Shown: positions 10,867 to 40,246 of the stretch, in pieces
Position numbering within the stretch: the first letter of the stretch is position 1
Layout: every line of letters begins with the position of its first letter
Translations under genes and position numbers: made by a program
NCBI GenBank assembly: GCA_020740775.1
Contig: JAHEWK010000004.1
Location: 2,976,001-3,040,000, forward strand
DNA from: Ilyonectria destructans
Lineage: Eukaryota; Ascomycota; Sordariomycetes; Hypocreales; Nectriaceae
Direction: 5' to 3'
Length of the DNA: 64,000 nt
The notes under the pieces: model-generated
Told to the model about the DNA's origin: nothing
Database searches by the model: none
Seen by the model: only the letters and a program-made list of their open reading frames with translations

Positions 10867-12624
10867 ATGATGGACGCTCAACAGGATGACACCTCGAAGG
10901 AGAAGATGCAAGACATCGTCTCTACCGATCAAGGCCATGTCTCCGACACTGAGATAAGCAAGGCGGACGCCAAACGTCTTCTACTGAAGACGGACTTGGT
11001 CGTGATGCCTTTGGCTGTGCTTAGTATGACACTTGCCTTTCTGGACAAGGTAATCCGGTGATCCCCTATTGGCTTCATCTTTTGCTGACCGCAGCACTAG
11101 AATGCTCTGGGCTACGCAGCCATTCTTGGTATCAAGGAAGATGCGAACCTCCATGGCCAGGAATACAGTTGGCTGAGCAGCATCTTCTACTTTGGCTATC
11201 TTGCCATGGAGTTCCCTAACCTTTGGTTGATGACCAAGGTTCCCATCGGAAAATACATTGGAGTCTGTCTCTCCCTCTGGGGTTCTTGTCTCTGCTTCAT
11301 GGCTCTTTGCCACAATTTTGCGGGACTGGCAGCCATCCGCTTTCTGCTGGGTGTTTTCGAGGCTGCCGTATTGCCAGCTATGCTGATTGTCAACTCTATG
11401 TGGTACCGCCGTGAAGAGCAGCCGCTCCGCACTGCGTTCTGGTACAATACATTTGCCGGAGTGTTCGGCGGCATCTTGTCTTATGCCATTGGACAGATCA
11501 AGGGGTCGCTGACCACATGGAGGGTAATTCTCATTTTAATTATCACAAATACCACCTTGGAGAGGTCAATTAACTGATACTTATGTGATTTAGTACATCT
11601 TCATCATCTATGGAGCGGTCACCGTTCTTACCGGTTTCCTTTTGTTTTTTGGTCTGCCCGATTCCCCTTCCAAAGCTTGGTTTTTCACAGCAGAGGAGAA
11701 GAGACTGGCTGTCATTCGGCTTGCCTCTAACCAAACTGGAGTTGAATCGCACAAGGTATGATAATACTCGATTTCATTTCTTCCCACTGAGCACTGACTA
11801 AGTTATGTAGAAATTCAACACACCGCAGATCCTTGAATCCCTGCGCGACCCCAAGTGCTACTGCATCTGGGTGGGTGTCTTTGCTTATGCTATCGCCAAT
11901 GCGGGTATCACGAACTTCAATCCGCTCATCATCGCCGGCTACGGCTTCAGCAAGACCAAGACGCTTCTGATGGCTACTCCTCAAGCAGCCGTCGCCATGG
12001 TCAGCCAGGCAATTCTTACAACAATCTCATTCTTTGTACCAAACATGCGATGTATCTTCTGGATTGGCTCGGCTCTGATCGGCATGACTGGTGCCGTCAT
12101 GGTACATGTTCTCAACTCTGAGACACAGAGAAACGCTTCCCTGGCGGGAGTCTACCTGATGGGCTTCTACAACGTTCCATGGGTCTTCCTGCTCAGTTTG
12201 TCTTCTTCGAACACAGCTGGAGCCACGAAGAAGAGTTTTATGGGAGTTTCTGTGGCAGTTGTATATGGTCAGTGCAATTCACCCGCCCCCGAGAGAATTT
12301 GCTTTTGCAAACGTTTGCAATTCGCCTACAAATAAATGATCAAGTGCTAACACATCGTCAACTTTAGCCATTGGTAATATTGTCGGCCCTCAGTTCTATA
12401 GATCGGACCAGGCACCCAAGTACACTCTCGGCATTGGTTCAATTATGTGTGCATTTGCCGTTACGGCTGCTACGGGTCTCACCTACTACATTCTTTGCAT
12501 CCTTGAGAATAAGCGCCGTGACGAGAAGTATGGTGAGCCGCATGATAACGCCGAAGTTGGGCTCGAGGCAGAGCGGGAAGACATGACGGATTGCCAGAAC
12601 CGAAACTTTAGGTATACTTATTAA
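10867..12624 (+). CDS. MFS transporter, Dal5/anion:cation symporter (allantoate permease) family
   Basis: Five exons (10867-11049, 11101-11523, 11594-11755, 11811-12267, 12368-12624) give 493 aa. The protein starts with a hydrophilic tail, then KTDLVVMPLAVLSMTLAFLD and NALGYAAILGIKEDANLHGQ, the typical Dal5-family opening. About 12 membrane segments follow. Further family landmarks are EYSWLSSIFYFGYLAMEFPN, AIRFLLGVFEAAVLPAMLIV, WYRREEQPLRTAFWYN and FGLPDSPSKAWFFTAEEKRL. Members import organic anions or amide compounds such as allantoate, ureidosuccinate, nicotinate, pantothenate or dipeptides; the substrate here is unknown. The start is the first of two adjacent ATGs. It is divergent from the Zn2Cys6 gene and probably controlled by it. 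Confidence 0.93.
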
Positions 12625-12826: not shown

Positions 12827-15295
12827 TTAAGCTCTCTTTCGCTGGTTTTTACTGGACAACAACTTATTCAACTCCTCCATCAACTCCTTGTTCGCATGCT
12901 TAATTTGTGTCAGGTCAGATTGCCAACTAGAAGCGGTGATCATAAAGTTGCTGAAGATGTTGTCATCCCACGTTAAGGCAGCGTCTTGGTCTGACCTTGC
13001 TGCAGTGCTGGTAGAAGCAATGCCCCATCGTGACCCCTTCGGGAGATGTATTCGAGCAAGTAGGAACGATGGCTTTTGTGTTGCAATGCTATTGCCAGGG
13101 TAGAGTACGATATTGGTCTGCAGAACCCGACCTTGGCGGTTTGTTATCTCGTAGCGGCAGCTAGTAATCGCCCCCCGCCTTGCTCTCTCCAAGGATCGTC
13201 CAAACTCCGGCCTCAATTCTTTGCGAACTAAGTCTTGAATGCTGGTGCCGACCAATTGGCTCGGCTGGAGATCGAGCAACGACCGAATATTGGACGAAAC
13301 GAACAAGAGGATGCCGGATGTCGAGATCTTAGCCCATATCTCATTATCCCCGATGCCACCATCCATCTCCAGATGGCGTCGGCTGAGCACAAACATAGGC
13401 CGCTTCCGCCCTATCAGGATGATACATCTCGTCTCTGAGTCTTGTGACGATCCCCGGCTTTCGAAATAGGTATAGCCGCTGCGTTTCTGCCGAATCCGGA
13501 AGATGAGATCGACGGTGTTTCCCAGGGCGCAGTTTTGCAACTCTCGTGTAACTGGCTCAACGTCGAATGGGTGGCAGACGGAAGATAGGGGGATCCCCAC
13601 TAACTCGGCAGCATCATACTCAAGAATTCGCTTGCATGATGGGGAAATGTAAAGAAAGATTCCCTCTAATGACAACACGTGAATCATGTCGTCAGAATTT
13701 TCAAGCAGCATTATGTCCCATGACTGCTTGAGCCAGTTCGAGACAATTTCCCTGGGGTAGGAGTTTGATAATATCGTTGAGACATCCTTTGGACTAAGCG
13801 TCTGTCCATTCTCATGCTCCCACTGGTTTGGTGCTGGCGGGACCCAAATGTATTGGCCAATGCCGGGGTACTTATAATTGATTTTGACCGGGCCCGCCCC
13901 CGGCCCCGGCGGTACTGAAAGAGCATCGGGGCTTTCGACAAGGTCGATTAGGAAACCTACCAAATACCGAATCTCATCCGTGTCCCATGGGATAGGGAGT
14001 ATAGTGAGCAAGTTCAGAAAATGTTTGCCTCCTTTCCGGTAGTTAATCAAGCTTTGCTGCCCCTCGTGTCTCAGCTGGACCATCGTCCTCAGACTGAACA
14101 CAGTGCCGTCATCGACGAACTCTCGCTTCCTCCCGGCCTCAACCTTTCCATCAGGCGCCTGCAGAAACCGACAATTCTGGCCAATTATCTCGTGACGACT
14201 GTACCCTGTGAGATTCTGGAATGCATCAGATGCATAGATGACGGGACAGTCATTCATAGTCGTGTCGCAAACGACGATTGCGCAGGACAAGTCGACTTCA
14301 CCAAGATTGATCTTGGGATCTTTGCGAGTAGCAACCAGATACAGAGCCCTAAGCAGATCAAAACCGGAACTGTTGTAGATGCCTGACTTCTTTAAGCCTC
14401 CAACTGGTGGCCCTATGACATTGGCGGTGATATCTAAGGATGGTGTGCTTGGTTGGGCAGATATTATCTCTTGATGTTCCATGGTGTCTTGAAAATGTGA
14501 TCTTGAGAGTGGTAGCTCCATTAAGACATCAGTTTCATCGTCAGCGTTGGAAGGAGGCTCGATCGGTGATCCAGGAAACGAAACGGGAGGAGAGTTGTAT
14601 AGTGACTCTGTGTATTCGAGAAACCGGTTCAAGGCGAAATGAGCGTTCGTTCCATGCCAATCTGAGCCTTTCTCCTCAGCTATGCTGATCAATTCGATGC
14701 GATCGATTTCCAAGGCCTCAAGTTTAGACTGGATTTGCTTGAATTCCTTATTGAAATCAGCCTCCATCCGTTTTGTTCGCTCGTCTATAGATGTCGTAGT
14801 CAAGCTTCGAGGTAGGTAATGGTTAGCGAGAGATTTGCATGCTTCTAGAAACCCAAGGGATAGTTACAGTGTGACGGCATGAGCTGCCAGGCTGAGAGAT
14901 GCCTTGTAAGTGAGAATCGTGTCTCTGAAGAGTTGGATCTCCTTGTCTTTGAATGCCCATGAGATTTTCTTCCATACACGAACCCTTCTGGTGCCATCTC
15001 TGGAGGTTTGGGTGTATGTTTGCAGAGTCATCATAAACTCATCAAATATGTCCAGGCAGTTTTCTAGAGGGGCTTTGAGGGAGTCGCATAGTAGATTGTT
15101 ATCGTCCAGCTTCTGCTGCATACCCGAAAGGTCTGCTAGGGTACTGTAGAGTGCTTTCAGATCAGTAGAGAGTGCTGCAATATCCTTAGGGGCACTTTGT
15201 AGACTATCGATAAACTCGAATAGTCTCTTTGAGCCGTGGAGCGCGGCGCTAAGAATGCCCACAATGCTCGCCGTAAGAGAGAGGGGATCCGCCAT
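12827..15295 (-). CDS. HeLo-like (STAND N-terminal) domain fused to white-collar-type LOV-PAS-PAS protein
   Basis: Two exons (15295-14868, 14804-12827) join in frame through a GTAACT intron with a CGCTAACC branch site, giving 801 aa. Residues 1-142 (MADPLSLTASIVGILSAALH...) match the fungal N-terminal domain of STAND/NLR proteins (PF17111, HeLo-like). Residues 145-190 look like a coiled coil. A white-collar-1-type LOV domain follows (about 285-435) with GYSRHEIIGQNCRFLQAPDG; its Cys354 is the residue that forms the flavin adduct in photoactive LOV domains. PAS-like regions follow at about 500-610 and 630-735. The tail (KELMEELNKLLSSKNQRKRA) matches the basic region just before the GATA finger of WC-1, but the protein stops there. 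Exon 2 has no ATG at its open 5' edge, which supports the join. The gene probably encodes a blue-light-responsive protein that does not bind DNA by itself. Confidence 0.88.
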
Positions 15296-15669: not shown

Positions 15670-18600
15670 TCACTTATGGCTCTCATACAACCCCCTAAAT
15701 CTTGTCTGTCCTTCCAACAGCTTCAACGGCTCATCATATTCCACCAGCGTCCCTGCATCCAGCAGAGCGACACGATCATACTTGGTGACATAATGGAGTC
15801 GGTGCATGATGGAAATCACCGTGCAGTCCCTGAACTCCGTGTCAATGATGTCCTGTATGATGCGCTCAGTGTCGCTGTCGACACTGCTCGTAGCCTCATC
15901 AAACACAATTAGCTTCTTCCGTCGGACCATCGCTCGTGCAAGACAAAGTAGCTGCTTCTGTCCTGCACTCCAAGACGCGGAGTCCATCTCTTTGTCCAGG
16001 CCCTGCTCTTTGATAAGTTCCCATAATCCCACTCGATCCAGAGCGCGAATGATCTCGTCGTCTGTGGCTTCCCCAAAAGGATCCATGTTGAACCGGACAC
16101 TCCCGGGGAGAAGAAATGGCTCTTGGGGAACAACATTGACCTTTGAGCGCAAGTATGATGGGTTGAGAGAAGAAATGGAGACGGAATCGATACTAATGCT
16201 CCCGCTTTGAACATCCATCATTTGAAGCAGGCAAAGGATAAGAGAAGTCTTGCCACTGCCGGAACGGCCGCATATCGCGACATGCTCGGACGGATTGATC
16301 GATAGACTGACGCTCTTGAGGACGGGACCGGACTCGGGTCTTTGAAGAGATTAGTACAACATCGATAACAAGCTCTTGTAATCCGCAAGTGAGTACGTAC
16401 CCATGAGAAGCAACCAAACTTTGAAACTCGACAGAGCCCTCCTGTGGCCATTCCGAAGGAATTTTCGGGCTTGCATTCCCTTCACCAGTACCCTCTGATT
16501 CTGTCTCTGCCGCAAATCTTTTCACCCTGCTTACAGCGCCAATGCTAGACTCCATAGCCGTCCACATCTGGATAACACGGCTAATAGTAGTGTTAAATGC
16601 TACGACTGCAGTGAGGCTCACACCAACACTACCAGCGTCGAACTTATTTCTCAACTTTATGACAATGGTGAGAAGAATCACAATCACAGCAGCGATTATG
16701 ATGTCGATCGTAAACGTAAGCCATTGTTGAATGCAATACTGCAGATATTCTGGACGCTGACTGGTGTCGATAAGTAGATCATTTCGAGACCGATACTGCC
16801 TTTTCCAGCCGAAAGCACGGATTGTTGGTGCCCCAACAACTGACTCCTGGAAGCTAGTATAGAGGGGAGCCTTGGCTTCGATCCCTAAAAGCCGGACCTG
16901 ACGCGAGGTTTGGAGGTAAAAGCGCTGCAAGAAGTATAGAACGGTACCGACAACAGGGACGGTCGCTGCCAAGTATTTGGAAAAGATGACCAGAATTATA
17001 AGCTTGGCAAGACATAGCGTAGCCGCTACCATGAAAATTATTAGTAACCAATACTTTACAAGGGGGATTTTGGACGAGGGTGAAATGCTTGACCAACCTG
17101 CTGCGTAGTTCACCACATAACTGGGGAGCTCCATATCGATCAACTCCATATCTTGACTGAATCTGCACCAGGAGGTTACTACATGCTGCATAGGAAGCTC
17201 GGATGGATATAATATCCAGTGGTATGTACTGACCGGTTTATTAGGGACCCGGTATCTGTGATGCTGAAGAATCTGAACGGCGCCCTAAGTGATTAAAAGT
17301 GTCAGCATCATCTTCGCAATAATGAAGGTCCGAACTTACTTTAAAGTTGCTTCAAGCAAATCATTGTGCAACTTGTATCCCGTGTTTGAGATAATTTTGA
17401 GGAATACGAGCCTGAAGCCTTTGTAAGATGACCGGCAGTGGCTGAATGGGTGGATGCGAAAACTTACCAACAAACAACAAACACCAGGAAAGCCCCGAGA
17501 GCACCAAAAGCAACGAAGACTCCCATATACATGCCAACATTCTCATTTGGATGAGCAACATTGGCCTCGGACCACCATTTCAACCAGATTGCTGGATTGT
17601 GAATTGGTTAGTTTAATTGCGGTGCTTGGGGATACGCGGTGTGTAGAAACGTACTTGGAAATTCGGAGAAGAAGATCCACAAGACCAGTGACAACCCGAA
17701 CAGGCTCATTGTGGTCCATCCGGAGCTTTCGAAATAGTATTTGTAAACAGAAGCATCACCGGTTTTGCGCCTCGCATCGTCAACAGCCGCATCTGGCTCC
17801 TCAATTAGGTCTTCGGATAATCGCGATTCTTCGTCGGTAGAATCGTCGTGAATTGCATGTTGGGTCTTCTCGTCGATGGTCGCATCAGCAAATTTCAGCC
17901 CAATATGACTGATGTAGCCGTTGCTTTCAAGAAGAGTCGCAGGGCTTCCAGTTTCCGCAACCTTTCCGCCCTCGAGGGCAACAATCTTGTCGGCTAGTCC
18001 CATGAGTTTGTCTACGGCGGAGTTAGTATTCATTATCCGGCGAATTTTTTGATCGGTAACTCACGGTTGTGAGTAGCTAGTATCACGGTAACTCGGTATC
18101 TCCGGAAGATGCCATTACGCCCCAGCAAAGAATGGGAGATGTGTTCAATTGTGCGGGCGTCCATTCCACTGAAGGTATCATCCAGGAGAACAACTGAGCA
18201 CCTTGAGTACACAGCTCTCGCAAGAGCCTATTCGGAAGTTAGCGGTGTTGACTTGCAAGGAGAAAGTTACATACGATCCGTTGTTTTTGACCACCGCTGA
18301 GACTGCACCCTTTGCTGCCAACAGCTGCCCGATCTCCGAGCTTGATCTGCGCGAAATCTGGATCCAATGCGCATGCAAGTTTGACAGTCTCGTACCATTT
18401 TGGGTCATACGGAGACACCCCGAGGATGTTCTTCCGGATCGTCGTATTTTCTAACCACGGCTCCTGGGAACAGTACGCGATGGATCCGGATCCCCTACAT
18501 ATGACTCCAGAGAGTGAAATAGTTTCTCCAATAATGCTCTCCAGAAGAGACGTCTTACCGCTTCCAACAGGCCCAACAATAATTGTTAAGCTCTCGGATT

Positions 18601-20823
18601 CGACACGCATGTCGATGTCTGTTAAGACTGAGGACGCCGCTGGTTTCCAAGCAAAGCTCTGGTTTTGCATTGAAATAAGATCATCTCCGGAAACACGGGT
18701 AGGTGAGCTGAAAGCCTCGACAGCTAATGGCTGAAGACTGATTACAGACCCAGAGGCACGAGGAGCAGAATCTGTGTTGTTTTCAGGTGCCGGCTTCTTT
18801 GGGTAGTAGTTGGCGTATTCCTGAATTCGATCAAAGCTACCGATAGACTGGAGAACCTCTGGCAAAGATTGTATAAACATTAGGACAGGCCGAGTTAGGA
18901 GACTGATTAGAGCCAGTGAGGTGAAAGCTTGTGCTGTCAGAAGGGATTCATCTTTCCAGTAGACGGCAATAATTGCATATACTCCAAAGGTAACCACTGG
19001 GGCTATATTGAGAATGCAATTTGCTAAGGTTTAAATTAATACAATCTCAAAGCGACAAGAGTGATACACTTACAAAGAACTATTCGCACAATAAGGAGTT
19101 TCCTAAAGCCTTTTGAGGTGTTGATCTCATCAATTCGGAGTTTCTGGATGACGGTAAACATGATATCGGACAACCCAAGCATCTTTACGGCTTTCATATC
19201 ACCAAGCATGGTAGTGGTGATACGAATTCGCTCTTGGACTTTCTCAATCCACCGACGTTGCTCACGCTTGGTTGAGGCTGAAAGCTTGGAGGTAATGGCG
19301 ATAAAAACTAGATCGCCATATTAGCCACATCATTTTCACTCACAAAAAGTTATTTCTGCCTCCGAACGTACTAATTGAGACAACAACAGGCGCCACACAG
19401 GCGATAGAAAGCTGTCGCTCCAGCAACCACACAGCAATAGAAATATCTAGGATTGTCGCCCATATCTCGTGAATTGCACGAAATGATTCGACGATGCGTA
19501 GAATATCCGTTCCCATTAAGGCCACTGCAGTGATGTCTTCGGAATCGGCGGTTCGTATTTCTAAGGCTCTTTCGTAGACGAGGGCAGTCAGACCTCCTCG
19601 AAGACGTGTGATAAATCGAAACAGCTGGTATTGGTAGAGAGCGGTCGACGCCTTGAGAGCGTTTATTAGCGAAAACAATGATGCAGTGACTCCATCTGGA
19701 TCACTCACAGCAAGACCCAAGTAGACAAGCGCCCAGGCACCAATCAGACCTTTTCCATACGTACTGTTGGGTGAAGATTCTCCCACAAAGTTTACCGTGG
19801 TCTCAATCATGAAAGGTTGAGCAAAAGTAAAGGCGGTTTGACAGAGACGTGGGATAATTGCAGACGAGAATGAGAAGAAAAATGCACGAAAACATGCACG
19901 AAGCAAACTATGACGCTCTTGCTGATTATCTATAATTGATTAGCGCCGACAATGAACTCAGACAGAAGTAGCTCACAAGTTGCCCAGGTAGCCGTAAGCT
20001 TTTGTCGCAGCACAGAACTTCGCAGCTGCGTATCCAATAGAGGCAGGTCGTTGACTGAGATGAATTTGGAGTACCCTAGACGCAAGGTGACTAACAGCCA
20101 GGCGAAACTCGTTCGTACCCATAACCCGCTGTATTGTTCCGGTGCGTATTGTTTCCACATGTCAGAATGCTGGGATGCTTTCAAGCTAGACTTTCTTTCG
20201 ACGGATTCAAGGATGAAAGCAATGATAGTGAAAACCATCATGGTGGTAAAAACGGCCGGTTCGGCAGGGCTCGATTCCATGAGCCATAGTGTTCGAATGC
20301 GGGCGATGGACAGAATTATCGAAATGGAAAAGTATAGACTCAAAAGCGTGGAAGGGCGCAGAGATCGCTGATGGTCCAGATATGAAAGTACGATCGCGCC
20401 AACCGTAGCTGCCAGACTTAAAATATCAGCTGGCAATGAGGCGCCACTTCGGAACGAGTTGTTGTGAGCTCGGAGAGCCAAAAACACGACCTGTGTAATG
20501 AGAAGTCCCCCGAGTGCAATCTAAAAATAAATTTGGTGAGCATCTGATCTGTGACAAAGACCCCAATGGATTCCACCTACTAATTTGCTGATTTGCAGCT
20601 TAGACTGCACCGAACATGTTGGGGAACTCTTCAGAAGCCGAAAAATATTCCACGGCAGCAGGCATATGAAAACCGCGGCGGGGAGGCAGGCGAAAATGAC
20701 GTCTTCAAATTGCAGGGTGAAATCGAACGACCGGCACAACGTGTTCACGCGAGGCCCAAATGACTGATCCCAGGCAAGTAGGCAAGTTGAGCTTGCTACT
20801 TGGGCAAAAGCAAGCTCTTCCAT
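15670..20823 (-). CDS. ABCC-type (MRP) ABC transporter, full length
   Basis: Thirteen exons (20823-20581, 20520-19977, 19929-19709, 19651-19372, 19307-19074, 19023-18275, 18227-18065, 18011-17655, 17591-17468, 17411-17340, 17284-17234, 17162-16401, 16339-15670) total 4470 nt, 1489 aa. The order is TMD0, TMD1, NBD1, TMD2, NBD2. TMD1 opens with RLCQTAFTFAQPF and has STALYQYQLFRFITRLRGGL. NBD1 has GPVGSGKTSLLESIIGE, LSGGQKQRI and SVVLLDDTFSGMD, with Asp where catalytic Glu is usual, as is common in ABCC NBD1. NBD2 has GRSGSGKTSLI, an altered signature WSAGQKQLLCLARAM, LIVFDEATSSVD with Glu, and the H-loop in IMHRL. Such pumps export conjugates and drugs, or load vacuoles. It is divergent from an MFS transporter. 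Confidence 0.93.
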
Positions 20824-21531
20824 GGCTAAATTGAGAGATTGATAGATGGTGAGAGCGCAAAATAACAAGCTGTAATTCCACAGGCCACATTCGAGCTATC
20901 TATTCAATGTCAGCACAATTATCTTGGCAGGAGTCAGTACTTTTGTATTGTTGACACAAGTCAGACCAGTCTAAATTGCGTAATCGAATATGCAATTATG
21001 GCCGGAACTTTTGTTCCCCCACCGTCACCCCATTTAAGAAGGTGACTGCGATAGCATCAATTTACGGGCGCATCAGATCAATTACCCTGCAAAACCCGGC
21101 CATCTGACAGGACAATTAACGAAATCTGATGTAGACTTGGTTGCCGACATCCGACCCACTGATAAATTCCTCCCCATTTGCTAAATACTCGGTGAATGCC
21201 TATTTTGTATCCATAAAAATCCCGATGGTTGGGTTAGAGGCTGCAGGACGCGTATTGAGTACGAAATACGACACGGTTGTTGATCAGCATCAGTCGTTAT
21301 AGAGTGCGTCATCAGCAACGCAAAGTGCACACGTAAGAATCTTACAGCAGTTACGCGTTTGTTTCCTTTGCGTGCATCTTTAAGGCTCAAAAACGTCTCC
21401 ATCTCTTGTTTCTCACCGGTAGCAGCGAATTTTCTCACGATTGCCAAGCTACACAGTCCAAGACAGGCAGCCACACTTGCGTTGACCGTCGCAATTACGC
21501 GACTTGTCAGTTGATTATCCTTACCTTCAAA
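20824..21531. promoter_or_regulatory. Divergent promoter region of ABCC and MFS transporter genes
   Basis: About 700 nt between two divergent transporter starts. No coding sequence is supported. A shared promoter is inferred from the arrangement; I see no repeated operator like the one at 10.4 kb. Confidence 0.5.
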
Positions 21532-23056
21532 ATGACGAATTATGCGTCAGAGTCTACACCGTTGTTGGGCTCCAATGCCTCTAAGGCAAAGAAGGAATAC
21601 GTCGTCGCAGTAGCCTTTACGCTCGTCGTTCTCGTCGACTTTGCAGGTGTTCTCACCGAAACACCACAGACCAGCATCCTCGAAGGCATCATTTGCCGCC
21701 GCTACTACAACTCTCATCGAACCAAGGCTAGTCTTGACTGCACTGCCGGTCCTATTCAAGCTGAGCTCGCGACCATCACCCAGCTGTTCAATACCTTCAA
21801 TCTCGTTCCAGGAATATTGGTCTCCATACCTTTTGGTGTTTTGGCCGATAGCTACGGTCGTCGGGCCGTGCTTGGATTATCTATGCTTGGCATGGTCACT
21901 CAAGATATCATCGCAAAGCTCATTTTATGGCGCTCTGATATCTTCGCGCCTCGCCTGATATGGCTGACGTCAATTACTAGGCTCGTCGGCGGCGGCGAGA
22001 TGGTTGCATCCTCAATGATCTATCTTATGATCGCTGATGTCGTTCCCGCACATGAGCGAGCGAATACCTTCTTCTTGTTTTCCGCGTGCATTCTTGTTGG
22101 CGATGTGGTAGCTACACCTCTAGGCGCTTTTCTCATGTCTAAAAGCCCGTGGATACCGTACATTCTCTCGACAGTCTTGGCTTTCGTTGTCGGCGGTATT
22201 GCGCTTGTGCTTATTCCCGAGACATTGAACAAACCAGATTCTTCCGAAGCAGCTCAACAACCTCCATCTATTACAGGAAATGAACAGCGTGCTTCTCCAA
22301 CAACTGCAGTCAGCAAGACATTGGACTCTAAGAGGTTACAAGCTCTTCTCTCTAGGCTTCGACCCCTGGCAAAGGCAAACATCATAGCTATCCTGCTGGC
22401 GTTTTTTGTTGCGGCTTTGGGGCGCCAGTCTACTGGCTTCCTAGTCCAGTATATTCGACAACGGTTTAATTGGTCTTATGCAAAGGTGCGTCCTACCATC
22501 ACCCTGATCTTACCTGATTAAGCCTGACTAAACCACTTCTCAGGCGAGCCTTGTTGTTGCCTTAAGAGGCTCTGTCAACTTGATACTCCTGCTATGTCTT
22601 CCTGCAGTGAACAAACTTCTTGCTAAGCGTGGGGTTAGCATCTCAGCAAGAGACTTAGTCACTAGTCGCACCTCTGTCTGGCTACTCACCATCGGATCTC
22701 TGGTCATTTCCATGGCGCCTATTGTGGAATTGGTCGCACTGGGCGTGGTAATCTTTGCTCTCGGTTCAGGATTCTCCCCTGCGGCACGTAGTCTTGCAAC
22801 TGCATTCGTCCATCCTGACCAGACAGGAACTCTCTACTCAGCTCTGGGCCTGATGCAGTCGGTTGGTGGTCTCGTCGCTGGCCCGTTACTAGCAACATCA
22901 TTCGGTTGGGGGCTGAAACAGGGAAGAGAATGGACTGGTATACCTTTTCTTCTAGTAGCGGGTCTTTTTGCATCTGGTGCACTTGCTCTATCATTCATCC
23001 GGCTACAGAAAGAAGTGGAGGTGGAGGCTGAGGCAGATGGAGAAACTAGAGATTAA
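21532..23056 (+). CDS. MFS transporter
   Basis: Two exons (21532-22485, 22544-23056) give 488 aa with about 12 membrane segments. The start is the ATG of MTNYASESTPLLG. Early signatures are ETPQTSILEGIICRRYY and IPFGVLADSYGRRAVLGLSM, which is MFS motif A between helices 2 and 3. The intron sits after YIRQRFNWSYAK, inside the second half. A hydrophilic loop (about residues 235-275, rich in Ser, Gln and Pro) divides the two six-helix halves. The C-terminal half has GSGFSPAARSLATAFVHPDQ, then TGTLYSALGLMQSVGGLVAG. The family exports drugs or metabolites or takes up small solutes; the substrate is unknown. It is divergent from the ABCC pump. Confidence 0.9.
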
Positions 23057-35461: not shown

Positions 35462-37501
35462 TTAGACACTTCCATTAAATTGACTGCTTTCTCCCTGGGC
35501 CTTTGCACGTATTCGCTGCGTGCCGCGGCTATCTTCGGAGTTGTTCTGGCGGATGATAGAGGCTGAGCCTATCGAATCTATGTCTTCCTTGGAATGCATG
35601 TGTGGCAAGTGGCTAGCCTTGTCACCACGAGCTGTGGCAGCAAGAGCATCCAGTTCGTTGTTATCAAGCTGAGTCTGGGACTTCATGAACGACGTACGAT
35701 CGTCGGCCATGAAACGATAGCGAGAGTCCGGATTCTTTCGCCATAACACCAGGGTGTTCGAAGTGATGACCATAAGTAAGAGAATCAGAGAGAAAGCGGC
35801 ATTGGCGACGAAGAGAACAATCCCGGTGATTGCGGCCACCATGCTTGGAGCTCCAAAGACATTGGTAAAGATAAGCAGGAAGATGGCGTTCAGGAAGTTG
35901 AGAACTTGTATGGCAATGTTGAATGAATTCGTGCTTTTATCCATCCAGGGACGGAGTACGCTAAATGCAATTAAAGCGCCGGCTTCGATGATGATAAGAG
36001 CGATAGCTTGAACGACGCCCTTGCGTTGGCCAAATGCGATGAACATTCCTTTAATTAGGGTATAGCCAAGAATAGGAATAATGAAGTAGTAGCCAGAGGC
36101 GCGGAACTGAACGTAGAGGAAGCCCAATCGGTTCAGCACCTTGGAGTCTGAGAATAAAGCGTATGCCGGGTTGCGGTGCAGGCGCGCCAGACGCATCACC
36201 TGGAAAGTAGCCCAGCCAAGTGTAAAGAGCGTACCGAAGAAAAAGACCACAGCAAGGACGACTAAGGCAGGTGAGTCGATCTGAGTGAACTCCCACAAGC
36301 AAAGAATCGTTAATTGAGGGAAGCCAATGAGGGTCAATCGGAAGATAATTCCCTTGAGAGTGATAAGCCAACCGCTTCGAAACTCAAGGAATCGATCGCT
36401 CTTCAACCATCTCTGCCTAACACATAGCTCACAGATGGCCTTGAAAAGAGCAACGATAATGACGGTGAAGAGGACGGAGAAGTAGAAGAAAATGAGGCCG
36501 GTGAGAAAGACGTTCGTGGTCTCAATCCCAGCGCGGTACGCGACACGCTGGATCCCATACACAAGGTAAGCGCCATTTTCCAGCTTGGTGTTTGATCTTT
36601 TGGACATGGACGACATGCCACGGCGGATCATGTGCGTGGCGGATTCGGGGATGTAGTCGAGGGAACGCTTCGCGACTTGGACTGAAACCGTAGAGAGAGA
36701 GCTGAAGAGAGTTGCGGGTTCACCCCCGGTGGAGTGCTGATACCAAGTGAAGATATCTTGCATCCACCCAACTCCAATGATACCCATAGACCACTGGAAA
36801 TTTTGGGTCCACGCCTGCACGATGGGAGGCATATGAATACCCGTGAGACCAATAATAGCCTGACTCTGAAAATAGCCGAACAGAGACATGGCATTAACGG
36901 CCAGGTGCGCTGCACTATTGTCATGGCCGAGAGCAGAGACAAGAGCGGAGGAAATGAGGCCGAGTCCCGCAATGGCAGCCGTGGCCCATTTGACAGCTAC
37001 TTGCTCGACGGTTTTCCCGGTTGAAAAAGCCGCTTCAACACAAGCGACGCTCTCTCCCGTAGCGGTCAAGTTAACGAAGACGCGAACATTGGCATCCAGA
37101 TCGGGAATACCGTAGGTAATTCCTGGCAAGTCGTTCAAGGCACTGCCAAGTGCAAAATTAAACATCGTGTCGATTTTGCCAGGCGACATGGGACACAAGC
37201 CAGGCAACTTGTTGGACTTATCACAAGGATCAATAACTCTGCTAAAGACTTGGTAGCCGTAGGCATGCAGATCAACATCGAAAACGATGTTTCCTTGAAC
37301 TGTAGCAGTAGCGACAACTCTGCAGGTGACCATCGAGTTGTTCGGGGTGATGACCATGTTGAAAAGGCTGGCGGAAAAGGCCGACTCATCCTGACAGCTG
37401 TTCAAGGAATTGGATTCGAGGATTCTTTCGGCCGTGACGGAGGGGAGGATGGAAGCGAAGCAGCCGAGGATGGCGAGTACTGGGGCAAACGAGAACCTCA
37501 T
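35462..37501 (-). CDS. TRP-like ion channel / flavin carrier (Flc) family membrane protein
   Basis: A single exon of 679 aa. The start is the ATG of MRFSFAPVLAILGCFASILP, a clear signal peptide; an upstream in-frame ATG would bury it. Residues about 25-180 form the extracellular ML-like domain (PF14558), with SCQDESAFSASLFNM and paired Cys (DPCDKSNKLPGLCP). The rest (PF06011) has around nine membrane helices. Landmarks are QSQAIIGLTGIHMPPIVQAW, TQNFQWSMGIIGVGWMQ and RFRASGYYF-like text before the last helices. The tail is hydrophilic and Ser-rich. Yeast Flc proteins act in the ER or plasma membrane in FAD and calcium handling and wall integrity; the same role is inferred. Confidence 0.92.
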   Translation of the reverse strand: MRFSFAPVLAILGCFASILPSVTAERILESNSLNSCQDESAFSASLFNMVITPNNSMVTCRVVATATVQGNIVFDVDLHAYGYQVFSRVIDPCDKSNKLPGLCPMSPGKIDTMFNFALGSALNDLPGITYGIPDLDANVRVFVNLTATGESVACVEAAFSTGKTVEQVAVKWATAAIAGLGLISSALVSALGHDNSAAHLAVNAMSLFGYFQSQAIIGLTGIHMPPIVQAWTQNFQWSMGIIGVGWMQDIFTWYQHSTGGEPATLFSSLSTVSVQVAKRSLDYIPESATHMIRRGMSSMSKRSNTKLENGAYLVYGIQRVAYRAGIETTNVFLTGLIFFYFSVLFTVIIVALFKAICELCVRQRWLKSDRFLEFRSGWLITLKGIIFRLTLIGFPQLTILCLWEFTQIDSPALVVLAVVFFFGTLFTLGWATFQVMRLARLHRNPAYALFSDSKVLNRLGFLYVQFRASGYYFIIPILGYTLIKGMFIAFGQRKGVVQAIALIIIEAGALIAFSVLRPWMDKSTNSFNIAIQVLNFLNAIFLLIFTNVFGAPSMVAAITGIVLFVANAAFSLILLLMVITSNTLVLWRKNPDSRYRFMADDRTSFMKSQTQLDNNELDALAATARGDKASHLPHMHSKEDIDSIGSASIIRQNNSEDSRGTQRIRAKAQGESSQFNGSV

Positions 37502-40246
37502 ATTGGCGGTGCTACAATGGATTTGTGACAACGGGCGCGATTTTTTCGGCCGAGGCAGACGCGACAAGTTTGTCACCGACAAAACATGCCAAATTTCGTG
37601 TGGTCCAGTATGGCGAGCCCTTCCTTCAAATCGATCGGTCGTTTCCGTCGGCCGGATTCAAGAAGCAAAATTGTAAGAGTTTGAAATTAAAGCGGTGTAG
37701 AGCAGGTGCCCGACGACAGCGGGTCGAGTGCAATCAATGAGCAGTCGATAGGGCAATCGAGAGTAAAGGGCTTGAAATTAGAAGGAGTTCATCCGGTAAT
37801 TGACGAGGCCAAGCAACAGGTTGCGGGGAAGGTTAGGAATTTAATGGCAATAAATTCAACCAAAGGTCAGGTGATCTGGCTGGCTTCGGTAGCATGTGAA
37901 TTTTTAGAGATAAGACCGGCCGAGAAGATGAGTTGGAATCAAAAACGAATGTAGATGCAAGTCGCGACGAGTGTTGTGAGTTGAGCTTTGCGGGCGGGTT
38001 GTTCACGTCAGAATGAATACCAGGCGGGAAGAAGCATTTGGCTGGTCTGAAACGTCGAGATAATTCGGCAGCGCTAAGAATCAGGAGAGAAAACGGCGGG
38101 CCTGTCCACAAAATGAAGGGTGATCCAATACGAGCATCTCGACACGTACGGTTGTTGGCGGAGGCGCAGTTCCCTGTCGACAGTTGCATGCCGCCCAAAC
38201 AGGTTAATGGCCCATGCGAAGGATCTGGTGGGCCAATCCTATGAAACACAAACATCCGGTGAGGGTTCGATGCACAGCCCTGTGATCAACGTAGGCCACT
38301 TCATCCTTCAAGTGCATTAGCTTATCCTAATTTAACTCGCTGTCACTGCCCGCGTGCACGAGCTTCGGCCCAGATTTCTCAATTGGCCAGTATTCGAGAA
38401 GCCGTGGCACACGATTCGCCCATTTCCCTTGTCTGTAAGTATACTAGGGGGACCGAACGGGGAACGGACCGCTTATGAGCCTAAGCTTTTACGATCTTGG
38501 TGATAGAGCCCACCTTGTATCAGGAGGTTATTACCATGAGGCTGTGCCAGGTCGACGGGTATACTTTATTGATCCTTGGGAACGGCAAGCTTCATTTACG
38601 TGCCCCATGGCAAGACCACGGGGGGCACTGGCGAGAAGCCGACTTCCCGATCACGATGCTTGGCTGCATTCATGGCTCAAAAGCGGGGTATGACTGTCGG
38701 CCGCTGGATAAAGTCGCCAAAGAGGGGAAGTCGGACGCACTTAGACGTTGGGCCCCGGATCTTCAGCTCGACCAGTATTGACACCCTTACTCGAGCAGCC
38801 TTCTACACTGCGCCTCGCTCTCATTTCTGGTAGCGACAATCCACACTGCATGTTCCAGTATTGAGCGATTTAGAGACCTTTGCCGTGTTGACGTTGAGGC
38901 AGGCTTACAAACCGCCAGCCCAGCAGATTGCAGCACTGGAGGCGCAGTAATTTGAAACGGCACCCTGTGGTCGAGAAATAATACAAATAACTTCAAATGA
39001 ATTAAATTCCCTGGTATTTATCAATCTGCCTAAGCGTTATTTATTCTAATCAACTACGAAGTACGTAAGGGGCCTCCTCAACATGGGTTAACCGATGGGA
39101 TATTAGGGGCGCCTAGCAGCCATTCCAAATCTGTCTTCCACGTACGATTCCCCTACTTAATGGGGGGAGACAAGATTGCCAAAGCGATTGTTAAAGGCCT
39201 AGTTTCTACTACGTAGTAAGGGCAACAACAAAATACAGATTCTTCAGCGATTGAGATCCCATGAGGACTTTTCATGGTATTATACCATCTCGCGATGGAG
39301 AACCAACTGGGCGGGGGGTGACAGCTACAGTAGCAATTGATAACATTGGTGTCTCTCTGTTCCCAGATGATAGAAGACTTATTTTTTGTTTTTTTTTGTT
39401 TTTTTTTAGCTTTACTCAGATCATCAGATAGATCAAAGCCATGCAGTATTCTCAAACAGTAGAGATAAACAGTAAATGCTACACCCAGCACCAGAAGAAA
39501 CAGTAGCTGAACAATAAGGGATAGAAGACTTATACTATCTTATAGTGGAACACCTTACTGGACATGAACCCCCAAATCGTTCCCCTTATTAGATGTAATA
39601 CTCAAACCCCAGTACCACCGCCGAAGGAGGCACGTTCGAGTTTACTACAGAAGTTGACTGATCATTCCGCTCACAAAACGCTAAATCAGGCGCAGAACAA
39701 GCCACTTGAAGAGGTGGCCGAGAAGTCAGCGCAAAGTTGACGAGCCACACGTGAAAGCGGGTTGTTGCCGTCCTAGATGACTACGCAGGAAGATACGCAA
39801 ATATCCTCTCCAAATCGTTTCATTCCGGTTACCCAGTTGTCTGCAACCTTTCTCATGTCGAATCGGGCTGTGGATTTGAACAATTTGAGGGCATTTTTTA
39901 TCGAATGCTTTTGGGAAGGAGATATGTACGCGGACCTATACGCGGAATGTTCGAGCGCAAGATTCCCCTGATTGCTTCCAGCACACAATACGAGCGGGCA
40001 AAGTAAGAGCGATACAACTAAAAATAGTAGCAATAGTTACATAACATAGACATAACCTACTAATCATTATTACTTTACGATTGGCCCTTTTTACGGTATT
40101 TCCACAGCTTAGATAAACCAATTCTCCGATTCAGGCGGGAATCAACAACACGCCTGGGCAGCCCACTGGGGCTTATCGGGTCTCAGTGGGCTCGGCCGCT
40201 AACAACAGCTAGCGCTAGAAGAGACTCCACGAACCATTATCCTCAG
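37502..40246. other. Long intergenic region without a supported gene
   Basis: About 2.7 kb. ORFs at 38475-38781 (plus) and 37833-38255 (minus) lack conserved features or splice structure. A T-rich tract lies at 39381-39408 (three runs of T broken by G). The right end holds the promoter of the next regulator gene. Confidence 0.45.

Follow-up and report, generated by a model that had tools for sequence, protein, structure and literature searches.

In a 64,000-nucleotide stretch of the Ilyonectria destructans genome (assembly GCA_020740775.1, contig JAHEWK010000004.1, positions 2,976,001 to 3,040,000; hereafter the window), a minus-strand gene joins a helical PF17111 module, known from fungal NOD-like receptors (NLRs), to the light-sensing half of a white-collar photoreceptor. 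The observation is real and was confirmed. Splicing of the two exons is predicted with good support, and joined relatives were found in at least 20 named species or strains. Judged by sequence comparison, the sensor half is a fast-evolving paralogue of WC-1 that ends just before the GATA finger. According to the trees, WC-1 sequence has come into the module setting on at least two occasions. It did so through new joins or through overwriting (gene conversion), two routes that look alike in these data.

Domain architecture and the exon junction

The joined exons give a minus-strand frame of 801 amino acids plus the stop codon, with the following features:

15295-14868 (428 nt), minus strand: exon 1, with its ATG at 15295; residues 1-142 and two bases of codon 143, the four-helix part of PF17111.
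14867-14805 (63 nt), minus strand: predicted phase-2 intron, GTAACT...GCTAAC...AG, with an in-frame stop TAA at its start.
14804-12827, minus strand: exon 2 including the stop codon; remainder of the helical module, linker, LOV-PAS-PAS and C-terminal coil.
14552..14803, minus strand: second part of the N-terminal module (N-module), residues 144-227; end of PF17111, then S-x-W-x-G-T, RFLEYTES and SFPGSP (alignment of 26 proteins).
13913..14377, minus strand: LOV with N-terminal cap, residues 286-440; PAS_9, aligns to structures of Vivid (VVD).
14171..14173, minus strand: codon of the adduct Cys354 (GQNCRFLQ), equivalent to VVD Cys108.
14000..14002, minus strand: codon of Ile411, at the position of VVD Met165.
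13949..13951, minus strand: codon of Leu428, at the position of the LOV active-site Gln (VVD Gln182).
13409..13654, minus strand: second PAS, residues 527-608 (PAS-B of WC-1); PAS_3, 67.1 bits.
13028..13372, minus strand: third PAS region, residues 621-735 (PAS-C of WC-1); PAS_11 match; the genome's own WC-1 has the same residue at 74 of 115 positions.
12830..12937, minus strand: C-terminal coil, residues 766-801, ending ...SSKNQRKRA; at this point WC-1 continues into the GATA finger.

The sequence-only reading had assigned a HeLo-like domain to the N-terminus, and Pfam bears this out. PF17111 (PigL_N, formerly Helo_like_N) matches residues 2-175 of the joined protein with 79.2 bits (cut-off 27.2); the match lies over the exon-1 part (residues 1-142), spans the junction and reaches into exon 2. 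The white-collar sensor with its adduct Cys, also proposed before, is found as well. The LOV is a PAS_9 domain (residues 318-431, 91.5 bits) with Cys354, and PAS_3 follows; residues 509-595 are the better of two stretches matched by the PAS profile. The third PAS region was placed by alignment, and its PAS_11 match (residues 635-725, 22.4 bits) is under the cut-off of 25. The light sensor does stand where NLRs have NACHT and repeats: NACHT, NB-ARC and C-terminal repeats (WD40, ANK, TPR) gave no Pfam match in the 801-residue protein at E ≤ 0.1. The glutamine-rich N-terminal region of WC-1, present in the genome's own WC-1 frame, is absent from the window protein. Having more domains on either side of the LOV, the protein is not a stand-alone capped LOV as Vivid is.

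The junction between the two exons, for which an in-frame join had been claimed correctly, was compared with that of relatives. Five other PF17111 genes of this genome (L001-L005, those read at the junction out of 49 matches) share a phase-2 GT at this point, and in three of the five it belongs to GTAAG. Among database proteins (P numbers), both sides form one chain in Ilyonectria P0001, in Fusarium P0003 and P0005-P0013, and in others. In P0128 (Lasiosphaeria) the sides are joined, whereas the very similar P0131 has extra residues read through at the junction point. In a group of 31 short proteins (P0132-P0162), 27 stop at the same distance past the conserved helix-4 motif YKxS as the exon-1 frame of the window gene. 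A length of 142-143 residues marks 23 of the 31 as unspliced exon-1 frames. The contigs of P0137, an exon-1 frame with 96% identity, and of P0004, which represents exon 2, both have a length of 34569 and are probably the same contig. Some gene models speak against a clean junction: the models of P0017, P0022 and P0143 use an acceptor further on, P0016 is without part of the module, and the annotation of F. oxysporum f. sp. zingiberi has two adjacent genes (P0136 and P0167) at the locus. A chance join of two parts was rejected on the junction evidence across relatives.

The absence of an ATG at the 5' edge of exon 2, claimed earlier, holds only in part. There is an in-frame ATG at 14767 (residue 155), and it serves as the start codon in models P0002 and P0004, but similarity between species continues upstream of it. 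This bears on the idea that one locus yields two proteins, in which a retained intron would give a 143-residue bundle, exon 2 would give LOV-PAS-PAS from the ATG at 14767, and the joined form would be minor. Such an arrangement would account for the in-frame stop at the start of the intron, for the 27 of 31 short relatives that end there, and for the split zingiberi annotation. However, any GTAA intron in phase 2 gives such a stop, the PF17111 match and the interspecies similarity cross the junction, and joined models exist in many species. We give this idea hardly any credence.

As the intron starts with GTAA in phase 2 (14867-14864), translation would stop at once on intron retention. The product would be a complete 143-residue bundle, and a switch between the free bundle and the joined protein is possible.

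Relatives and the two histories of the gene

The gene is not an orphan, a candidate that was rejected because relatives with the same domain order are in the databases. In precomputed Pfam lists, PF17111 and PAS_9 occur together in at least 23 database proteins. This number is a lower bound drawn from two protein searches, the first of which scored 7995 candidates and listed the best 120 of 616 matches. Their sources are 18 Fusarium names (two only 'sp.'), Ilyonectria robusta and Purpureocillium lilacinum, and the database labels include 'White collar 1' and 'GATA transcription factor LreA'. A check of fungal proteins for this domain order, suggested by the sequence-only reading, was thus positive. 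Its statement that it knew of no described family agrees with the literature covered, although the proteins themselves are in public databases: no description of the PF17111 and LOV pairing was found in the accessible text of open-licence papers. The pairing is absent from the accessible part of a 2023 review of Fusarium photoreceptors (PMC10056346) and is not mentioned in those of PMC7457929, PMC9815663 and PMC10512319. The same review describes a single wc-1-like gene as general in fungal genomes and puts the photoreceptors of Fusarium at ten or more, four of them flavoproteins (PMC10056346). A second WC-1-derived family under 18 Fusarium names would extend this list and could confound wc-1 phenotypes.

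Within the family, the domain content varies. A GATA finger is present in three joined relatives (P0003, P0014, and P0016), P0001 has LOV-PAS-PAS without the finger like the window protein, and the remaining 19 of the 23 are short, with module and LOV only according to their gene models. In the gene models of 17 short Fusarium relatives, PAS-PAS and finger have been lost while module and LOV are retained. In P0022, the PAS pair is gone and sequence from both flanks of the pair is retained. Hence, at least the P0022-type short form probably arose by deletion. As the helical module and the capped LOV are constant across the family, while PAS-PAS and finger vary, we treat the former two as the working core.

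The module also occurs in other settings. When residues 1-250 alone served as the query, 27 proteins were obtained, and each of them has the N-module, whole or partial. P0121 from Thelonectria olida, labelled histidine kinase, has it together with an unrelated PAS_3, P0124 from Purpureocillium lilacinum has it with ankyrin repeats, and P0122 and P0123 from F. oxysporum have it without LOV, PAS or ankyrin. P0128 (Lasiosphaeria) and P0129 (Hypomontagnella) consist of the module only. In P0122 and P0123, a hydrophobic C-terminal stretch, seen by eye, takes the place of the LOV and may represent membrane segments or a gene-model artefact. In the gene model of P0049 (F. acutatum), a PF10604 domain replaces the start of the N-module.

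The sensor half is a copy of WC-1, and the genome has a separate complete WC-1 with GATA finger (L010) on the same contig as the window gene. From LOV to coil, the two are 51-77% identical per segment, with one variable linker at 43%; in the capped LOV, 119 of 155 residues (77%) are identical. Like WC-1 and its equivalents WcoA, BLR1 and LreA, the window protein has a capped LOV with adduct Cys, PAS-B, PAS-C and the pre-finger coil. In contrast to them, it has a PF17111 module instead of the glutamine-rich N-terminus, no GATA finger, and Leu in place of the active-site Gln. The window protein, P0001, P0002 and P0004 all end at the same place before the finger. A finger hidden downstream of the window gene was rejected, as none was seen in three frames to 12400. 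In two of the three finger-bearing relatives, the finger residues shared by WC-1 are unchanged. The finger of P0003 carries substitutions at positions which are identical in the WC-1 of the I. destructans genome, P0014 and P0016, as if it were decaying. A WC-2-like frame (L014) was noticed by eye, with 27% identity in one PAS.

Comparison of the window protein with P0001, P0002 and P0004 gave 85-96% identity for the N-module, LOV, PAS-B and PAS-C, 67-78% for the two long linkers, 73-90% for the short variable linker, and 81-92% for the coil. The folded parts thus changed less than the long linkers and still appear to be under selection.

Next to the family tree of the sensor, that of the N-module tells a different history. 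The N-module tree (26 rows) omitted P0002 and P0004, which have no exon 1 in their models, and P0049, whose N-terminus is replaced. In it, the window pairs with Ilyonectria (support 100/100), 21 Fusarium rows fall together (87/79), and the two Purpureocillium proteins, LOV-bearing P0014 and ankyrin-bearing P0124, are sisters (100/100) with Thelonectria adjoining. This tree, whose root was not inferred, is compatible with taxonomy. In the LOV-PAS-PAS tree (35 rows, including 27 of 96 listed WC-1-type rows), a long branch (1.36) leads to a clade of the window, P0001, P0002 and P0004 (100/100), P0003 and P0016 lie within Fusarium WC-1, and P0014 groups with Purpureocillium WC-1. The last grouping recurs in a LOV-only tree (99/81; 42 rows, 144 columns), for which 16 database WC-1 and the own WC-1 were taken and P0049 was omitted because of its incomplete LOV. 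There, the short Fusarium forms fall into two groups, with the F. solani type separate from the others. Identities agree: P0014 shares 84-94% with P. lilacinum WC-1 over LOV, PAS-B, PAS-C and coil, and 57% with the window over the module; P0003 shares 89% with F. tricinctum WC-1 over the LOV and 99-100% over PAS-C and coil.

A single origin of all seven full-length light-sensing halves was rejected (p of the approximately unbiased test, p-AU, 0.0014). P0002 and P0004 are among the seven although their models are without PF17111; we took them as joined because the module is already under way where their sequence begins, and P0004 also because the exon-1 frame P0137 lies on a contig of equal length. 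As the single clade is rejected, WC-1 sequence has entered the module setting at least twice.

With these data, a functionless relict, i.e., a chance join of two duplicates which is now decaying, appears very improbable. The long branch (1.36) of the window lineage, the many truncated or split relatives and the finger substitutions in P0003 would suit decay. A relict would not be expected to keep an open frame, the same end in four proteins and domains that are more conserved than the long linkers, nor to persist in at least 20 named species or strains with a module tree compatible with taxonomy.

Another possibility is that the protein is a bait (integrated decoy). Here, a WC-1 copy would be touched by factors which interfere with WC-1, the HeLo-like module would raise the alarm, and light sensing would be secondary. 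The combination of an immune-type N-module with a copy of a host regulator is suggestive, as are the closeness of this copy to the same-genus WC-1 in Purpureocillium and Fusarium, its fast change with partly altered light chemistry (Leu428; one Cys lost), the loss of the finger in the window lineage, and the same module on ankyrin repeats in P0124. On like grounds, a copy of the CHK-2 kinase on Sordariales NLRs was proposed to be a decoy (PMC12258605). There too an immune-type protein bears a copy of a host regulator, but the kinase copy is at the C-terminus of a full NLR, whereas the window protein has no nucleotide-binding (NB) domain and the copy is WC-1. The absence of both NB domain and repeats weakens the bait idea, and the adduct Cys is kept in 23 of 24 LOVs compared, which is beyond the need of a pure bait. 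No report of a WC-1 attacker was met, though none was searched for. All in all, we regard the bait as quite unlikely.

The helical module, light chemistry and possible function

In a scan of the 71.7-Mb genome, the module of the window gene scored 78 bits for PF17111 at 14741-15292, as one of 49 matches. In several of these, an exon boundary splits the domain, and its second half falls in the exon that follows. The best other match in the genome has about 30% identity to the module, so no close paralogue was found there. Residues 1-142 were modelled with a mean predicted local distance difference test score (pLDDT) of 79.9 and helices at 4-31, 37-57, 60-65, 67-93, 108-114, and 117-141. The model thus has four long helices and two short ones (60-65 and 108-114), of which 108-114 lies between the last two long helices. 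The same layout, a bundle in which a short helix separates helices 3 and 4, is described for MLKL and HeLo-like domains (PMC9815663). In the model of the relative P0125 (mean pLDDT 68.5), the last helix runs from 113 to residue 185, and a further helix (197-210) covers the RFLEYTES part. Structure comparison gave the MLKL, Rx and NRG1 bundles among the matches, with unrelated bundles scoring equal or higher. Foldseek gave no match for the N-module at E ≤ 0.001, and a sequence comparison with the PDB yielded no relative of significance (best E 0.051). Across 22 aligned proteins, helix 1 shows high conservation.

The module could be a light-gated effector, in which LOV dimerisation joins HeLo-like bundles and thereby turns on a membrane or cell-death activity, with the LOV in the place of NACHT. 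It shares with the HeLo-like domains of fungal NLRs and HELL proteins the PF17111 score over the cut-off and the predicted four-helix bundle with short helices; the difference is that NACHT, NB-ARC and repeats are missing and a LOV sensor comes next. Experimentally, a HELL domain brings about cell death (PMC12881547). The conserved helix 1, the MLKL, Rx and NRG1 matches, the recombination of the module with other domains (PAS in P0121, ankyrin in P0124) and the constancy of module and LOV alone would all be in line with an effector. Yet the structure matches do not single out MLKL over unrelated bundles, and none reaches E ≤ 0.001 in Foldseek. Moreover, the LOV is without the Gln, and the sensor half of three relatives follows the local WC-1 including the finger, which is superfluous for a pure dimeriser. 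We consider this effector rather unlikely, though worth keeping in mind.

The light chemistry of the LOV is predicted to be altered. LOV and cap align to Vivid structures (best E 1.8e-40), with the cap included and through VVD Gln182, and Asn397 and Asn407 are conserved in this alignment. Thus, Vivid and Envoy resemble the window protein in cap and LOV over the whole domain, and from this likeness the window LOV could pair with a WC-1 LOV. In contrast, Vivid is a capped LOV only, whereas the window protein adds the helical module before it and two PAS after it.

Leu428: The active-site Gln is replaced by Leu in all four proteins of the window lineage (window, P0001, P0002, and P0004). It is kept in 17 of 17 WC-1 compared, in all three finger-bearing joined proteins and in 15 of 17 short joined proteins. 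With Cys354, Asn397 and Asn407 present and Leu428, the window LOV belongs to the class of LOV receptors without the active-site Gln, in which Leu also occurs with the Cys kept (PMC9098866). It is set apart from them by its fungal white-collar type and by the unusual domain at its N-terminal side. About 350 such natural LOVs are known, with Leu among the commonest substitutes. In oat LOV2, adduct formation survives the Gln-to-Leu change, but recovery is slowed about 22-fold and the helix/structural change is halved (PMC9098866). Therefore, normal light output of the window LOV should not be assumed.

Ile411: The position of VVD Met165, which contacts the flavin, is Ile in all four window-lineage proteins and Met in 17 of 17 WC-1 compared. 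At the position of the second Vivid methionine, the window has Leu, the same as 17 of 17 WC-1. In Vivid, M135I together with M165I makes the 'on' state tenfold longer (PMC13149671).

Cys354: The adduct Cys is absent in P0023, the one exception among the joined-protein LOVs compared. Loss of its Cys does not prevent Vivid from dimerising in light (PMC4682037).

As Leu428 and Ile411 resemble changes that slow oat LOV2 and Vivid, slow dark recovery is expected. By analogy, the window LOV should be a weak but slow switch.

For the protein as a whole, we tentatively favour, at less than an even chance, that a finger-less WC-1 paralogue with a PF17111 module pairs with the white-collar complex and restrains it. 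Blue light would induce the adduct between flavin and Cys354, the residue needed for it being present. By analogy with oat LOV2 and Vivid, Leu428 and Ile411 would let the adduct decay slowly. The capped LOV would then pair with the LOV of WC-1, in the way known for Vivid in Neurospora. Further contacts, to WC-2, may come from PAS-B, PAS-C and the coil. Without a finger, the protein would keep the complex in a lasting inactive pool, which the helical bundle may cluster or tether.

Domain order, absence of the finger and the separate complete WC-1 in the genome argue for such a restrainer, as do the likeness of the capped LOV to that of WC-1, the common end of the four window-lineage proteins and the conservation of the folded parts. 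Much of the evidence is shared with the effector and bait readings. The short Fusarium forms keep only module and LOV, as expected if LOV-LOV pairing is the core, and the grouping of the sensor half of finger-bearing relatives with same-genus WC-1 fits a need for compatibility with WC-1. The known precedent is Vivid, which binds the white-collar complex and thereby restrains it; fast-reverting Vivid binds less (PMC4433212; PMC10056346).

Several points weigh against restraint. P0003, P0014 and P0016 keep the finger, hence restraint would not be the sole role of the family. Nuclear location, binding to WC-1 or WC-2, expression and light dependence are predictions at most. Just one of the two Vivid methionines is Ile in the window LOV, P0023 is without the Cys, and Gln-to-Leu weakens signalling in model LOVs. 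With a further Vivid-type LOV match in the genome (L011; 43% identity, interrupted by one stop), there is no obvious need for a second restrainer. The occurrence of the module on a different PAS, on ankyrin repeats or without LOV speaks for a function of its own. Lastly, the placement of P0003 and P0016 among WC-1 is not resolved in the LOV-only tree, and one clade of the window lineage with these two Fusarium proteins is not rejected (p-AU 0.40).

A broader picture would combine several of these elements into a fungal guard system without NLRs. A necroptosis-type HeLo-like effector would sit on a white-collar copy with a slow LOV. In more than one lineage, this copy would have been renewed from the resident WC-1, which would keep the bait faithful. 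Light or tampering with the receptor would cluster the bundles and lead to a membrane or cell-death response. Taken as a whole, we hold this to be unlikely. Independently of this picture, the gene provides a natural example of a light switch on an immune-type helical bundle, with a sensor half captured or overwritten more than once. This makes the triggering of such bundles, and bait-type receptors in fungi, open to tests with light.

Neighbourhood in the window

Of the 59 window frames with at least 150 amino acids, 20 were scanned with Pfam. The matches include an ATP-binding cassette (ABC) transporter, the major facilitator superfamily (MFS), an O-methyltransferase, transcription factors, an aminotransferase, a lipase and a transient receptor potential (TRP) channel. 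As neither a polyketide or peptide synthase nor a NACHT protein is among the 20 scanned frames, no clear cluster emerges. Frames at 11101-12624 (plus strand) look transporter-like by eye; the scanned one (11811-12332) has no Pfam match. ABC transporter frames lie upstream of the window gene at 16196-19030, with an MFS transporter further on at 21337-22518. At 35465-37657, a single frame of 731 amino acids has TRP_N and TRP channel domains, both strong.

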